Positions 2,122 through 60,198 of a DNA stretch of 63,959 nucleotides are shown here, piece by piece (the stretch's first letter is position 1; each line of letters opens with the position of its first letter). The DNA lies in the NCBI GenBank assembly GCA_944326315.1, contig CALVDP010000007.1:1-63959 (forward strand), read 5' to 3'. The notes beneath the pieces are model-generated. The model was not told the DNA's origin. It saw nothing but the letters and a program-made list of their open reading frames with translations, and ran no database searches. This DNA is from an uncultured Bacteroidales bacterium. Lineage in GTDB: Bacteria > Bacteroidota > Bacteroidia > Bacteroidales > UBA932. The position numbers and the translations under genes were made by a program.

Positions 2122-3408
2122 ATGATGCGTTATTCAGTATTGTTTGCATTGCTGGCGCTCTTGTCTACAGGAGCCTATGCACAGTACAGGGAGGGTGCGG
2201 AGACGCCTTCTACCTGCGTGACCATGGAAGAGTGTCTGGAGATGGCCAGGAACAATTATCCCCAGATCAGGCAGCTCGGGCTCATAGATGCCACCGAGAA
2301 ATATGACTTGTCAATAGCGTCATCGACATGGATACCGCAGTTCTCGGTCTCAGGCAAGGCTACATGGCAGTCTGATGTGGTGGAAATGCCGTTTGATATC
2401 CCGGGATTCGAACTGGACATGCCGCATGACCAGTATTCGCTGTCCGCCAATGTCACCCAGCATATCTGGGACGGCGGGGCCAGTTCAAGCCAGCGCGAGG
2501 CTGTGAAGACATCTGCGGAGGTGCAGAGGAAACAGACCGAAGTGTCTTTGTACTCCGTAAGGTCCAGAGTCCAGAATGTCTACCTCGGAATTCTGCTTCT
2601 GGACGAGCAGATAAGCCAGAACCGTCTCCTGATGGAAAGCCTGCAGAGAAACGCCGATGAAGTGCAGGCGATGATAGACAATGGCATGGCATACCGCTCC
2701 GACCTGGATATGGTCAATGTCAACATCCTTGACTGCATGCAGCAGACGGATGCCCTCTGTGCCGACCGGGAGGCGTATGTGAAGATGCTTGGTCTCCTGA
2801 CTGGCCGGGACATGTCCGGCGTGGAGCTGGAGATGCCTTCGGATGATGAGGCGGTGGATACGCGTGCGGTATGCAGGCCGGAACTGGCTTTGTATGCTGC
2901 AAGACTCCGGCAGAACGAGGCGCAGATGAAGCAGCTGAATGCCAGGATATCCCCTCAGTTTGACCTGACCCTGCAGGGAGGCCTCGGACGTCCGGGACTC
3001 AATATGCTCAAGAACGACTTTGCCCCCATGTTCATTGCCGGTATCAAGATGCAGTGGAACATCGCATCGCTTTATACCAGGAAGAATGACAAGAGAAAGA
3101 TAGAATCCGCGAAGCATGACATAGAGCTGGAACAGGAGACATTCCTGTTCAACACGGGTCTGGATGCGACGCAACAGGAGACAGAGGTGGACAAGGCCCG
3201 CATGATGCTCGAAAAGGATGACGAGATAATAAGGCTGAGGTCTTCGATAAGGCTTGCCGGGGAAGAGCAGTACAGGAACGGTACCATCAAGATGACGGAT
3301 CTTATGGGCATGATAGACGACGAACACAATGCCAGACTTGCAAGGTCTGTCCATCATATACAGCTGCTGATGGCCATTTATGACCTGAAAAATACAGTGG
3401 GGCAGTAG
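2122..3408 (+). CDS. TolC-family outer membrane efflux protein
   Basis: 428 residues with a cleavable signal peptide (MMRYSVLFALLALLSTGAYA-Q). The body has two outer-membrane efflux repeats rich in long helices, for example VEECLEMARNNYPQI-like heptads near residues 35-60, YSVRSRVQNVYLGILLLDEQ around 145, and a second set from about 300. This is the TolC pattern: a trimer forms an outer membrane barrel and a periplasmic tunnel. It would form the exit duct for the ABC pump encoded by the next five genes. In E. coli the comparable YbhGFSR system borrows TolC from elsewhere; here the channel gene is inside the operon. Confidence 0.9.
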   Translation: MMRYSVLFALLALLSTGAYAQYREGAETPSTCVTMEECLEMARNNYPQIRQLGLIDATEKYDLSIASSTWIPQFSVSGKATWQSDVVEMPFDIPGFELDMPHDQYSLSANVTQHIWDGGASSSQREAVKTSAEVQRKQTEVSLYSVRSRVQNVYLGILLLDEQISQNRLLMESLQRNADEVQAMIDNGMAYRSDLDMVNVNILDCMQQTDALCADREAYVKMLGLLTGRDMSGVELEMPSDDEAVDTRAVCRPELALYAARLRQNEAQMKQLNARISPQFDLTLQGGLGRPGLNMLKNDFAPMFIAGIKMQWNIASLYTRKNDKRKIESAKHDIELEQETFLFNTGLDATQQETEVDKARMMLEKDDEIIRLRSSIRLAGEEQYRNGTIKMTDLMGMIDDEHNARLARSVHHIQLLMAIYDLKNTVGQ

Positions 3409-3480
3409 CGTGGCGCAGGGCGGCAAGCCTTCATCGGAAATATGTGATATTGTGAATATTGTATTGAAAAATATTGAGAT

Positions 3481-4377
3481 ATGGATCTGAAAAGAATTTT
3501 GGCGGCTGCGGCTTTGCCGCTTGTTGCCGCAGGATGCGGCAGCCGGGACATAGAGTTCGATGCCTGTGGCCAGATTGACGCCACGGATGTGACTGTGTCT
3601 GCCGAAAGCAGCGGCAGGATATTGTCTCTCGATCTGGAGGAAGGGGACAGAATCGTCGAAGGGCAGTTCCTTGGAGCTATAGACTCCTTGCAGATATGGC
3701 TGCAGAAGCAGGAGCTGCAGGAGAGGAAGGCCGGAGCCCGCGCCAGGATTGTCGATATCGACAGACAGGTAGCACCGTCCCTGTCCCAGCTTGAGAATCT
3801 CCGCAAGGACCATGAGAGGTACGCATCGTTGCTTTCCAAGGATGCCGGGACGCGCAAGCAGTTGGAAGACAATGAATCGCAGATCGCTGTCCTGGAAGGG
3901 CAGATAGATGCGCAGAAACAGACCTACGGGCAGAACAATGATGCCACAAAAGCTGAAATCGGCATGTATGATGTCCAGATAGCCCAGCGTGAGGACCAGC
4001 TCAGAAAGTGCCGTATCGTCTCACCCGTGAGCGGGACAGTCCTTGCAAAGTATGCCGAGGCCGGCGAGACCGTGTCTTCCGGCAAACCGCTTTTCAAGGT
4101 GGCTGATATGGACAGGGTGTATGTCAGGGCGTATTTCTCCACAGCCCAGCTCTCTTCCCTTGCCGTAGGGGACAAGGTCACTGTTATCCCTGACGACGGC
4201 ACGCCGTCCCCAAAGGAATATGAAGGCACTGTAACGTGGATTTCCGATGAGGCAGAATTCACCCCGAAGAATATCCAGACCAGGGATGAGCGTGCGGATA
4301 TGGTGTATGCCGTGAAAGTGGCGCTTGAGAATGACGGGAACCTGCGCCTCGGCATGTATGCTTATATAAGGAAATGA
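3481..4377 (+). CDS. HlyD-family periplasmic adaptor, lipoprotein (YbhG-like)
   Basis: 298 residues. The N-terminus is a lipoprotein signal with lipobox VAAGC (Cys19), so the adaptor is probably anchored in the inner membrane by lipid. A split biotinyl-lipoyl domain (SAESSGRILSLDLEEGDRI near 40-58 and VSPVSGTVLAKYAEAGETV near 180-198) brackets a coiled-coil hairpin (about 75-165), followed by a beta-barrel domain. This order is typical of membrane fusion proteins that bridge an ABC transporter and TolC. The last four bases overlap the start of the first ATPase gene, which indicates translational coupling. Confidence 0.92.
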   Translation: MDLKRILAAAALPLVAAGCGSRDIEFDACGQIDATDVTVSAESSGRILSLDLEEGDRIVEGQFLGAIDSLQIWLQKQELQERKAGARARIVDIDRQVAPSLSQLENLRKDHERYASLLSKDAGTRKQLEDNESQIAVLEGQIDAQKQTYGQNNDATKAEIGMYDVQIAQREDQLRKCRIVSPVSGTVLAKYAEAGETVSSGKPLFKVADMDRVYVRAYFSTAQLSSLAVGDKVTVIPDDGTPSPKEYEGTVTWISDEAEFTPKNIQTRDERADMVYAVKVALENDGNLRLGMYAYIRK

Positions 4378-8427: not shown

Positions 8428-9237
8428 ATGCTGCTGGCAATATTCGGCTTCCTGAGCCTGTCGCTGATAGACATACTTGACATCATTCTGGTGGCCCTTA
8501 TCATATTCGTGGTATTCCGCTGGATAAGGGGGACGTCAGCCATGAGCATATTCATGGCCATACTTTCGCTGTATGTGCTCAGGGTCATTGTCGGCGCGTT
8601 CAACATGAGGCTCATGTCGGCCATCCTGGGGCAGGTGCTGGATGTCGGAGTGCTGGCTCTCATCGTGATTTTCCAGCCGGAAATCAGGAAATTCCTGATA
8701 CGTTTCGGCAGCAGGTACCTCATGGAGGCCGGACAGAACGGATTCCTGGGAAAGCTATTCGGGAACAAGACGCGCTCTATGGGAAGTACTGCGGTGAAGG
8801 AGGTGACAGAGGCATGCCGTACCATGTCCGAGCAGAAAACCGGGGCACTTATTGTCATCCCGCACAAGTCTCCGGTGGACTTCGTGATAGAGACAGGTGA
8901 CAGGATCGACGGCATCATAAGCAAGCGTCTGATCATGAATATATTCTTCAAGAATTCCCCTCTTCACGACGGAGCCATGGTGATGAGCAACGACCATATC
9001 ATTGCCGCAAGGTGCACCCTGCCTATCACCGAGAAGACGGATATTCCGGCGCAGTACGGCATGAGGCACAAGGCTGCAATCGGGATTTCGGAGGTGACGG
9101 ATGCCGATGTGATTGTGGTATCGGAGGAAACGGGGCAGATATCCTTCGTCAAGGGTGGTACGATCACACCTCTCAGCAATGCGAACGAGCTGCAGCTGCT
9201 GTTGAATAATTCTTTCTCTAAAGGACAGGAGGGATAG
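8428..9237 (+). CDS. dacA: Diadenylate cyclase (CdaA/DacA family)
   Basis: 269 residues. Three N-terminal membrane helices (about 1-80) precede a DisA_N catalytic domain that joins two ATP molecules into cyclic di-AMP, a second messenger for osmotic and cell-wall control. Catalytic motifs are visible: SPLHDGAMV near residue 181 (DGA) and GMRHKAAIG near 213, where most family members have RHR. The RHK form is a conservative change. The membrane arrangement is that of CdaA. It is followed by mutS2 after three bases. Confidence 0.93.
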   Translation: MLLAIFGFLSLSLIDILDIILVALIIFVVFRWIRGTSAMSIFMAILSLYVLRVIVGAFNMRLMSAILGQVLDVGVLALIVIFQPEIRKFLIRFGSRYLMEAGQNGFLGKLFGNKTRSMGSTAVKEVTEACRTMSEQKTGALIVIPHKSPVDFVIETGDRIDGIISKRLIMNIFFKNSPLHDGAMVMSNDHIIAARCTLPITEKTDIPAQYGMRHKAAIGISEVTDADVIVVSEETGQISFVKGGTITPLSNANELQLLLNNSFSKGQEG

Positions 9238-14287: not shown

Positions 14288-14316
14288 TTTTCTGCCCCGA
14301 TACCGGGAAAACAATG

Positions 14317-14358
14317 AAAGACGGGGATGACTTGAAATTGAACGTCATCCCCGTCTTT
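14317..14358. terminator. Bidirectional hairpin between yqeY and tRNA-Leu
   Basis: AAAGACGGGGATGAC (14317-14331) pairs perfectly with GTCATCCCCGTCTTT (14344-14358) around a 12-base loop. It is three bases past the 3' end of the minus-strand tRNA gene and 29 bases past the yqeY stop. The T tract is short on both sides, but the A/T ends of the stem suit a terminator serving both convergent transcripts. Confidence 0.75.
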
Positions 14359-14361
14359 GCG

Positions 14362-14736
14362 TGCTCCGGACGGGAATCGAACCCGTACGGACATTGCTGC
14401 CCACAGGATTTTCTTGCTACTCTTGCTTTTACACAAGCCGGCTTCATCACTGCGCTGCTAAGCCGTTGTAGTCTGGACTATTTCATGACCATGCACATTC
14501 TGTGTTTAGGTCCTCCCCGTATAGTCTCTACGCCATTGGCCGGTCCCGGACCGGCTTTAGAGAGCCATCGCCAAAGCGGGCATTTCTGTCCGCGAGGTTT
14601 CTGTTTGTTAGAGGAGTTCTACTTACAAGGTTTCCCTTGTAGCACTCTTTTTGTCCTTCTTCCGTCATTCCGGATGCCCGTTTACGGAAGGAAGGGCCTT
14701 CAAGTCCTGCGTGTCTACCTATTCCACCACCAGAGC
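14362..14736 (-). tRNA. tRNA-Leu(UAA), interrupted by a group I intron
   Basis: The minus strand reads GCTCTGGTGGTGGAATAGGT at the 5' end (14736 downwards), a Leu-type D arm. The 5' exon is 14702-14736 and the 3' exon 14362-14412; together they make an 86-nt tRNA. The acceptor GCTCTGG/CCGGAGC pairs throughout with one U-G. The anticodon arm forms CAGGA-CUUAAAA-UCCUG, anticodon UAA. A long variable arm (GGGC...GTCC) and a T arm ACGGG-TTCGATT-CCCGT complete a class II tRNA. CCA is not encoded. The break lies directly after U34, the classical position in cyanobacterial tRNA-Leu(UAA). Confidence 0.93.
14413..14701 (-). ncRNA. Group I self-splicing intron in tRNA-Leu
   Basis: 289 nt between U34 and A35 of the tRNA. 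The last exon base is U and the last intron base is G, as the group I mechanism requires. The core P7 pairing is visible as GACTAT in TAGAGACTATACGG (R element) with ATAGTC in GAAATAGTCCAG (S element). A long P2-like hairpin (CTTCCTTCCGT with ACGGAAGAAGG), a CAAGGGAAACCTTG hairpin and a strong GCCGGTCCGGGACCGGC stem fit peripheral helices. There is no open reading frame, so no homing endonuclease. I could not draw P1 with certainty. Confidence 0.85.
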
Positions 14737-58710: not shown

Positions 58711-60045
58711 CTACAGGTTGAATTCCTTTCTGATCATGTCTGTGGCATCAAGAAGCTCCCATCCGAAGAACTGTACGAACTCCTGGCTTCTTGTACCTCC
58801 GCGCCGGATCTCCACAAAATCCTTGTACGGCTTCCTTCCTACATGCCCGTAGGCGGCAGTCGGCTCGTATATAGGCTTTTTGAGCTGGAATTTCTCTATG
58901 ATCTTCGCCGGTCTGAGGTCGAAAAGCTCGCCTATCTTTCTTGCGATGAGGGAGTCGCTTATCTGCCTGCCTGATGCATCCTTGGCGGCGGTGCCGAAAG
59001 TATTCACGTATATGCTTACCGGCCTTGCCACGCCTATGGCGTATGCCAGCTGTACGAGCATTTCCTCGGCAAGTCCTGCCGCCACCATGTTCTTGGCTAT
59101 GTAGCGTGCGGCGTATGCGGCAGACCTGTCTACCTTGGACGGGTCCTTCCCGGAGAATGCTCCGCCCCCATGTGCCCCCTTGCCTCCGTAGGTGTCCACT
59201 ATGATTTTCCTTCCTGTCAGTCCGGTATCGCCGTGAGGCCCGCCTATCACGAATTTGCCGGTAGGATTGACGTGCAGGATATATCCGTGGCGGAACAGGG
59301 AGGCCGTCTCTTCCGGCAGCTCCTCAATCAGCTCCGGTATGAGGATTTCCTGTACGTCCTTCCTTATTTTGGCCTGCATGGCCTCGTCCACACGTTTCTG
59401 CCCGTATTGCGCACAAGCTTCGGCATAGCTCATTTTCCCGAGCTCCTCAGGCACGAATTCGTCGTGCTGTGTGGATATCACGATAGTGTGTACCTTGACC
59501 GGCTTGTGTGTGGCATCGTCATATTCTATTGTGAACTGTGACTTGGCGTCAGGCCTCAGGTACGGCATCCTGTCCGGTGTGTCTTTCCTTATGGAGGACA
59601 GAATCATGAGTGCCTTGTGGGCCAGTGCAAGAGGGAGCGGCATGTATTCGGCTGTGTCATTGCATGCATAGCCGAACATCATACCCTGGTCTCCGGCACC
59701 CTGCTCGTCTGCGTTTTCCGTGACCACCCCGCGGTTTATGTCCTGTGACTGTTCGTGCAGGGCCGATATCACGCCGCAGGAGTTTCCGTCGAACATGTAT
59801 TCCGCCTTGTTGTAGCCTATCCTGTTGATCACACGACGTGCGATGCTCTGGATGTCCACATATGCGTCTTCCGACCTTACTTCCCCGCCCACAACGACGA
59901 GTCCGGTGCTGCAGAAAGTCTCGCATGCGACCTTCGCTTCCGGATCCTGACGGAGAAATTCATCAAGTATTGCGTCTGAAATCTGGTCCGCCACCTTGTC
60001 AGGATGGCCTTCCGATACTGATTCTGAAGTAAATAGATATGCCAT
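58711..60045 (-). CDS. metK: S-adenosylmethionine synthetase
   Basis: 444 residues, somewhat longer than the 384-residue E. coli enzyme, as is common in Bacteroidota. It makes SAM from methionine and [23 protein letters not shown] near 7-26 binds ATP and Mg, [12 protein letters not shown] near 116 is the family signature, and [19 protein letters not shown] near 291 is the phosphate loop. A structured leader lies upstream. Confidence 0.97.
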
Positions 60046-60198
60046 ATTTCAAAAAAATAAATGCCCCTTCAGAAATGAGGAGCACAAACCATATCTAAAA
60101 ATTGAATACAATGCACAGAGGTGCAGAAATCCCATTTTAGCATTTTTTTGTGTGGTTGCAAGCAGCCAAATCTCTCCACATTTCTGGCTGCAAAGGTA
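60046..60198 (-). promoter_or_regulatory. metK promoter and structured leader
   Basis: -7 box TACCTTTG (60191-60198, minus strand). The transcript would then show a hairpin GCAGCCA/TGGCTGC with a 16-base loop, a short hairpin TGCAC-ctct-GTGCA, and finally TGCTCCT...AGGGGCA (one mismatch) followed by a T-rich stretch (TTTATTTTTTT) directly before the metK ATG. The last hairpin looks like a terminator or start-codon mask. The arrangement suggests control in the leader. It does not fit the SAM-II consensus, and I assign no known riboswitch class. Confidence 0.45.

Follow-up and report, generated by a model that had tools for sequence, protein, structure and literature searches.

A probable homing group I intron without its endonuclease in the tRNA-Leu(UAA) gene of a Bacteroidales genome

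In discussions of how old group I introns are and how they are passed on, the tRNA-Leu(UAA) intron serves as a standard case, and its cyanobacterial and plastid form belongs to subgroup IC3. The stretch of DNA analyzed here (63,959 nucleotides from an uncultured Bacteroidales bacterium, referred to as the window) carries a tRNA-Leu(UAA) gene interrupted between positions 34 and 35, which we take to be the site of the cyanobacterial and plastid intron. A first, sequence-only reading of the locus called it a group I intron and left open whether it was an old inherited trait or a lateral gain. The locus raises the question of what kind of element this is and how it came to sit in a Bacteroidales chromosome. 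From the comparisons described below, we consider it highly probable that the element is a homing group I intron that lacks the endonuclease and still splices.

First, the gene itself lies at 14362..14736 on the minus strand, as do all of its parts given below. ARAGORN in its default mode calls zero tRNAs within the window; once introns are allowed, it calls a tRNA-Leu(taa) with a 289-nt intron. The 5' exon (35 nt, 14702..14736) ends in C32 U33 U34, the intron (289 nt, 14413..14701) follows U34 and closes with a terminal omega-G at 14413, and the 3' exon (51 nt, 14362..14412) begins with A35 A36. Rechecking of the coordinates bore out both the U said to precede the intron and the G said to end it. 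After splicing, the tRNA would be an 86-nt, class II molecule with discriminator A, the CCA not being encoded. The claimed insertion of 289 nt after U34 is also confirmed by the genome G162, which belongs to the same genus and whose uninterrupted tRNA-Leu(UAA) gene is identical to the window exons at 86 of 86 bases; the interrupted tRNA is therefore more than a chance reading. G162 is the nearest genome by topA among the 92 compared (79.0% protein identity, followed by G041 at 78.9%). An endonuclease gene is absent from the window copy, as had been claimed: the longest ATG open reading frames in the intron have 46 aa (sense) and 72 aa (antisense), with no HNH motif found by eye. A search of the window's genome with the HNH protein of a relative, run without a positive control, gave no match. 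On the 3' side of the tRNA, a symmetrical hairpin (14316..14359, no strand assigned), which drew only chance-level hairpin matches in the Rfam scan at E<=10, is perhaps a terminator common to the tRNA and a convergent yqeY-like gene. Elsewhere in the window, a SAM-II riboswitch lies at 60127-60185, upstream of a gene on the minus strand (58711-60045) that is metK-like as judged by eye.

The intron can be arranged into the helices of a group I ribozyme. An internal guide, GAGUGC (14642..14647), can pair by eye with the exon end GGACUU through a U34.G wobble and one mismatch, and is identical in all 20 introns listed from the two families described below. An extension hairpin in the P1 loop (14655..14695; from the fold and from comparison with loci L002 and L036) stands at the place where genomes G052 and G165 have an HNH gene. 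P2 is a hairpin at 14619..14642 (folds and intron comparison). P3 is made of CUCCUC (14611..14616), with both-side changes in 4 of its 6 pairs, and GGGGAG (14513..14518, from the alignment of family A). P5 with its terminal hairpin (14570..14598) has both-side changes in 4 of 7 hairpin pairs, and the P6 terminal hairpin (14539..14555) in 5 of 5 tested pairs. P8 (14487..14512) is supported by alignment and fold, and the P9-region hairpins (14422..14465) come from folds only. The GACTAT/ATAGTC pair proposed earlier as P7 is present, as GACUAU at 14521..14526 and, from the same alignment, AUAGUC at 14476..14481; by analogy this would be the guanosine-binding helix. Its five tested pairs are invariant in 6 of 6 sequences, so covariation is silent on P7 either way. 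The P3 and P7 core helices, together with P4-P6 and P8, follow in the order that characterizes group I, the weak point being P4 of family A, where no regular helix was found by eye and only 2 pairs are present. Two more group I characters are found here: the pairing, by inspection, of a guide G with the U that precedes the 5' splice site, and a G as the last base of the intron.

The window intron belongs to family A, one of two families that share this site. In the alignment of family A (A1, six genus homologues), 97.2% of the cells of 36 pairs are paired and 16 of the 36 pairs changed on both sides, such pairs lying in P3, P5, P6 and P8. None of 500 shuffles was as good on cells paired, double changes or covariation, and 91 of 500 equalled the count of further pair types. 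For family B (14 sequences), 99.8% of cells are paired and both-side changes occur in 10 of 35 pairs, with the further pair types equalled by 484 of 500 shuffles. Because both structures were read off the same alignments used for scoring, the comparison with slid controls favours them. The free fold of the window intron recovers P2, P3, the P5 and P6 hairpins, P8 and P9 (z -2.5, equalled by 5 of 200 shuffles). In the P7 region it forms other pairs, the method being one that forbids pseudoknots. At the base of P5, both families have introns with A opposite C and introns with G opposite U, besides a single case of U opposite U (A1 columns 25/53, A2 columns 25/48), which is seemingly a conserved wobble.

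The covariance-model search by which the sequence-only reading was to be checked, run with the models of Rfam, gave no group I or tRNA match in the window. Rfam found neither intron nor tRNA there, at the gathering threshold or at E<=10, and a scan of the window's own genome with RF00028 had no match. At E<=1, RF00028 matched none of six family A loci (the window, L002, L006, L036 and the phage loci L136 and L138). Three family B loci scored 51.7 (L009), 49.5 (L025) and 40.2 bits (L026) against a threshold of 50, so that one passes; this cut-off is a library threshold and not a defining trait of group I. We then have the two families' own models, which find each other: the A model matches 39 B introns with a worst E value of 6.9e-11, and the B model matches 7 of 7 A introns. 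Since B in turn reaches RF00028, family A is counted as group I through B. By this sequence comparison, family A is a group I intron too divergent for the Rfam library, and the group I assignment made for this Bacteroidota genome is supported by the conserved core and by the cross-detection with family B.

If the element works as other introns of its kind, the end of the 5' exon would pair with the guide in the precursor to form P1, with U.G at the splice site, and a guanosine held in P7 would attack after U34. The freed exon would then attack after the terminal G, joining an 86-nt tRNA the same as that of the relative's intronless gene. Mobility would come from the HNH protein that relatives encode in the P1 loop: by cutting a tRNA-Leu(UAA) gene that has no intron, it would allow the intron to be copied in. 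The window copy would be an endonuclease-less allele of such a homing intron, and we infer that it lost the gene rather than merely lacks one.

In relatives, this gene can be seen. Introns of 607-756 nt have an HNH-motif ORF in the P1 loop, where it lies after the 5' splice site and before the guide, and Pfam assigns these ORFs to HNH and HNH_3. The ORF is intact in 2 of 7 family A and 12 of 38 family B introns, and broken in 2 of family B. Of the marks of a homing intron, an endonuclease gene within the intron is found in two A introns and not in the window copy, and the scatter of occupied and empty alleles on the host tree is observed (for example, G000 occupied and G162 empty).

We then considered how widely the introns are distributed. 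Among 121 genomes of the sampled genus, presumably Candidatus Cryptobacteroides, 7 carry family A, 42 family B (three of them partial matches; one further gene is cut by a contig end) and 44 an empty gene, and 28 are unreadable. All 45 introns readable at both ends follow U34 of tRNA-Leu(UAA). The earlier description of introns at this site outside cyanobacteria as sporadic understates their frequency, with 49 of the 121 genomes having one, and the look among related Bacteroidales that it had proposed did find similar introns. Of 45 genomes with an intron, two that were assigned to B, G047 and G082, have an uninterrupted UAA gene as well, located on 4-kb contigs. Genomes with an intron also gave full-length matches of 74-83% identity to the probe for the empty gene; the two that were checked, in G058 and G156, are Leu(CAA). 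In the order, the A model matched 2 of 392 other genomes, in tRNA-Leu(UAA) and tRNA-Ile(UAU), and in the phylum the B model matched 30 of 394 others, in tRNA-Leu(UAA), tRNA-Arg(UCU) and further tRNAs, with anticodons as given by ARAGORN and some doubtful; both scans used strict filters and few candidates per genome, so these counts are lower bounds. The tRNA-Ile(UAU) group I intron is at L071, in the same order, and tRNA-Arg(UCU) group I introns occur in one Bacteroidota family (L078-L080, L088), where a single genome can have as many as three intron matches. A pattern scan of 84,980 named genomes gave 33 family A contigs, all titled as Bacteroidales or its families and several of them contigs of the genus sample. 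By script, 28 of the 33 hold both tRNA-Leu(UAA) exons; the remaining five are cut or masked, four having the 3' exon and L124 the 5' exon. The intron had no match in plasmids.

Phages also carry the intron. The A pattern matches four viral contigs and the B pattern three. L138, a 245-kb contig with several tRNAs, has a tRNA-Leu(UAA) whose A intron contains an intact HNH ORF of 156 aa. In L139 and L140, which do not differ over the tRNA-Leu(UAA) gene, a B intron with an HNH ORF interrupts it; L141 seems to be a cut copy of these, and L135 is probably the crAss-like phage cr115_1. Relatives of the L138 HNH protein are encoded in 234 phage records, and a scan of viral contigs for the HNH protein gave 9 loci. 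In the intron tree (138 columns; poorly resolved, with 7 of 79 inner branches starred), five phage introns fall within the A and B clades. Phages may be carriers of the intron. A family A intron follows U34 of a phage tRNA-Lys(UUU) at L136:728-1046 (minus strand), and family A can thus change tRNA. As separate observations, L135 (about 3221-3521) and L137 (about 8891-9173), both on the minus strand, have a family A intron and by eye a spliced anticodon CUA, that of an amber suppressor, and the L137 intron would end in A instead of G. At L139:4816-5865 (minus strand), a 277-aa HNH ORF stays in frame across the ribozyme core and extends into a further stretch in the P8 loop.

A looser core pattern found at least 120 stretches on viral contigs, and of 80 among the matches listed, 78 were new (L399-L476). 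ARAGORN sets the intron within a tRNA in 74 of these 78 and names Leu(taa) in 47, and by exon motifs 72 are tRNA-Leu(UAA)-like; the pattern was built from tRNA-Leu introns, which biases these shares upward. One or two proteins were compared for each of eight such phage loci: L402 and L440 have tail proteins, L135, L139 and L407 match other phage families, L416 matches families whose function is unknown, and neither L472 nor L453 had a match. The tRNA-Leu of L402 is 96.5% identical to an intronless one in cyanophages such as S-TIM5. Some of the L399-L476 loci are cyanophage-like, and their named relatives have the empty gene.

In order to weigh inheritance against movement, the introns were compared with the host phylogeny. 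The main alternative is that the intron is old, was inherited vertically within Cryptobacteroides or the Bacteroidales and was lost many times, the HNH genes being late hitchhikers. On a topA tree of 92 genomes (22 of the 114 genomes with topA were dropped as having no readable tRNA-Leu(UAA)), intron presence requires 28 changes against a shuffled mean of 30.1, and 125 of 500 shuffles are as low; well-supported branches force 21 of the 28. Presence is thus nearly as shuffled, which speaks against simple descent. Family identity behaves differently and speaks in favour of descent: the label B requires 23 changes against 29.5 on the 92-row tree (2 of 500 shuffles as low), and 12 against 18.4 (0 of 500) in the 55 genomes that have topA and tRNA-Leu on the same contig. 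The presence of an intron per species looks near random on the host tree, and its family identity does not.

Distances give a similarly mixed result. B intron and topA distances show no correlation over all rows (r 0.10, p 0.17, 36 rows) and correlate in the same-contig genomes at r 0.265 (p 0.013, 25 rows, with G016) or r 0.318 (24 rows), the latter set being again what vertical descent would predict. For A introns, r is 0.245 (p 0.23, 7 rows). First tests of intron against host distance had given r 0.095 (38 rows) and 0.004 (27 rows), and intron against L2 distance gives r 0.22 (p 0.004, 26 rows). We also measured how much likelihood the host topology costs in comparison with 50 random trees (0 for random, 1 for best; G047 and G082 left out of the all-rows test). 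The introns recover 0.29 (36 rows), 0.41 (24), 0.38 (25) and 0.26 (12) of it, and on the rows shared with ribosomal L2 (26, 17 and 18) they recover 0.21, 0.20 and 0.16, compared to 0.79, 0.87 and 0.83 for L2. With 24, 25 and 36 introns the host topology does better than every one of the 50 random trees, in favour of descent; with 12, 17 and 18 rows it does not. The introns track their hosts far less than the host gene L2 does, yet not randomly. An AU test was rejected as proof of transfer, as L2 also fails the host tree.

Single pairs with topA on the same contig argue against descent more directly: G076 and G031 have like introns in unlike hosts (cores 96.1%, topA 69.1%), and G164 and G023 unlike introns in like hosts (cores 87.7%, topA 86.3%). 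Introns at the same site elsewhere in the phylum would fit an old origin, whereas the sharing of one site by two families, the phage copies within both clades and the matching of only two order-sample genomes by the A model would not. Overall we consider vertical descent with repeated loss improbable, while conceding that the same-contig correlations and the clustering of families on the host tree weaken any claim that host signal is absent and shift a little weight toward it. The scatter might instead be an artefact of misbinned metagenome contigs, given that the named hosts are metagenome bins and that two of them (G047 and G082) hold both alleles; we think this very unlikely, as the 55 same-contig genomes (6 A, 26 B and 23 empty) still need 17 changes for presence against a shuffled mean of 17.9 (190 of 500 as low). 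Repeated movement is favoured by the two families at one site, the endonuclease-bearing relatives, the phage copies and the near-random presence on the host tree. On the question first left open, this evidence points to repeated, lateral movement with a residual host signal, and suggests that the intron, besides being inherited, passes from one species to another.

A direct cyanobacterial source would explain the shared site, and the motifs do resemble those of plastid trnL introns, above all in family B; relatives in other Bacteroidota and in phages would suffice as sources, however, and we give this origin very little credence. Unlike the cyanobacterial and plastid intron, family A lies below Rfam detection, has relatives with an HNH gene in the P1 loop, is scattered within one genus and is partly phage-borne. 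The two agree in tRNA and site, in a small endonuclease-less form, and in the U before and the G at the end (PMC3984707). The Beggiatoaceae, in turn, are Gammaproteobacteria, unlike the Bacteroidales host here. Their tRNA-Leu(UAA) is likewise interrupted outside cyanobacteria, putative group I introns being described for both tRNA-Leu-TAA and tRNA-Arg-TCT (PMC4853749). Group I introns in the T-loop of tmRNA are also small, sit in a tRNA-like gene and are mostly without an endonuclease (36 of 883 with a homing endonuclease gene; class Bacteroidia included), in another gene and at another site (PMC11915505). The HNH proteins found here are also of like kind to those of other phages. According to the review PMC3984707, all phage introns observed up to then were in protein-coding genes. 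Among the matches listed in a search of the open-access literature, none describes a group I intron in the tRNA-Leu of a Bacteroidales member or of a phage. This kind of intron is already known from cyanobacteria, plastids and Beggiatoaceae, and it is the Bacteroidales and phage lineages that are unreported in the literature searched. Phage group I introns with HNH endonucleases have reportedly been described in protein genes.

Finally, the supply of this tRNA in the window's own genome was considered. There are 34 tRNA-like places, taken as 31 stretches, with the leucine anticodons GAG, CAG and UAG besides UAA, and the sole UAA gene among them is the interrupted one. The intron-free tRNA-Leu(UAA) that was to be looked for was not found in this assembly (103 contigs, 95.6% complete), and a second UAA gene is unlikely; as Leu(CAA) is missing too and the assembly is incomplete, this absence is no proof. 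That the intron is a decayed, non-splicing relic with its tRNA supplied by another gene, as the missing Rfam match, the absent endonuclease and the incomplete assembly might be taken to mean, is most unlikely in view of core motifs kept with compensatory changes, intact exons identical to those of G162 and the lack of another UAA tRNA in the own-genome search.

This probable homing group I intron, which is without its endonuclease and probably still splices, matters in two respects. A tRNA gene that is seemingly essential is overlooked by both ARAGORN in its default mode and Rfam. In addition, one genus holds two intron families at one site, copies with and without the endonuclease, empty alleles and phage relatives, which makes it a place to trace the homing cycle and put it to the test.
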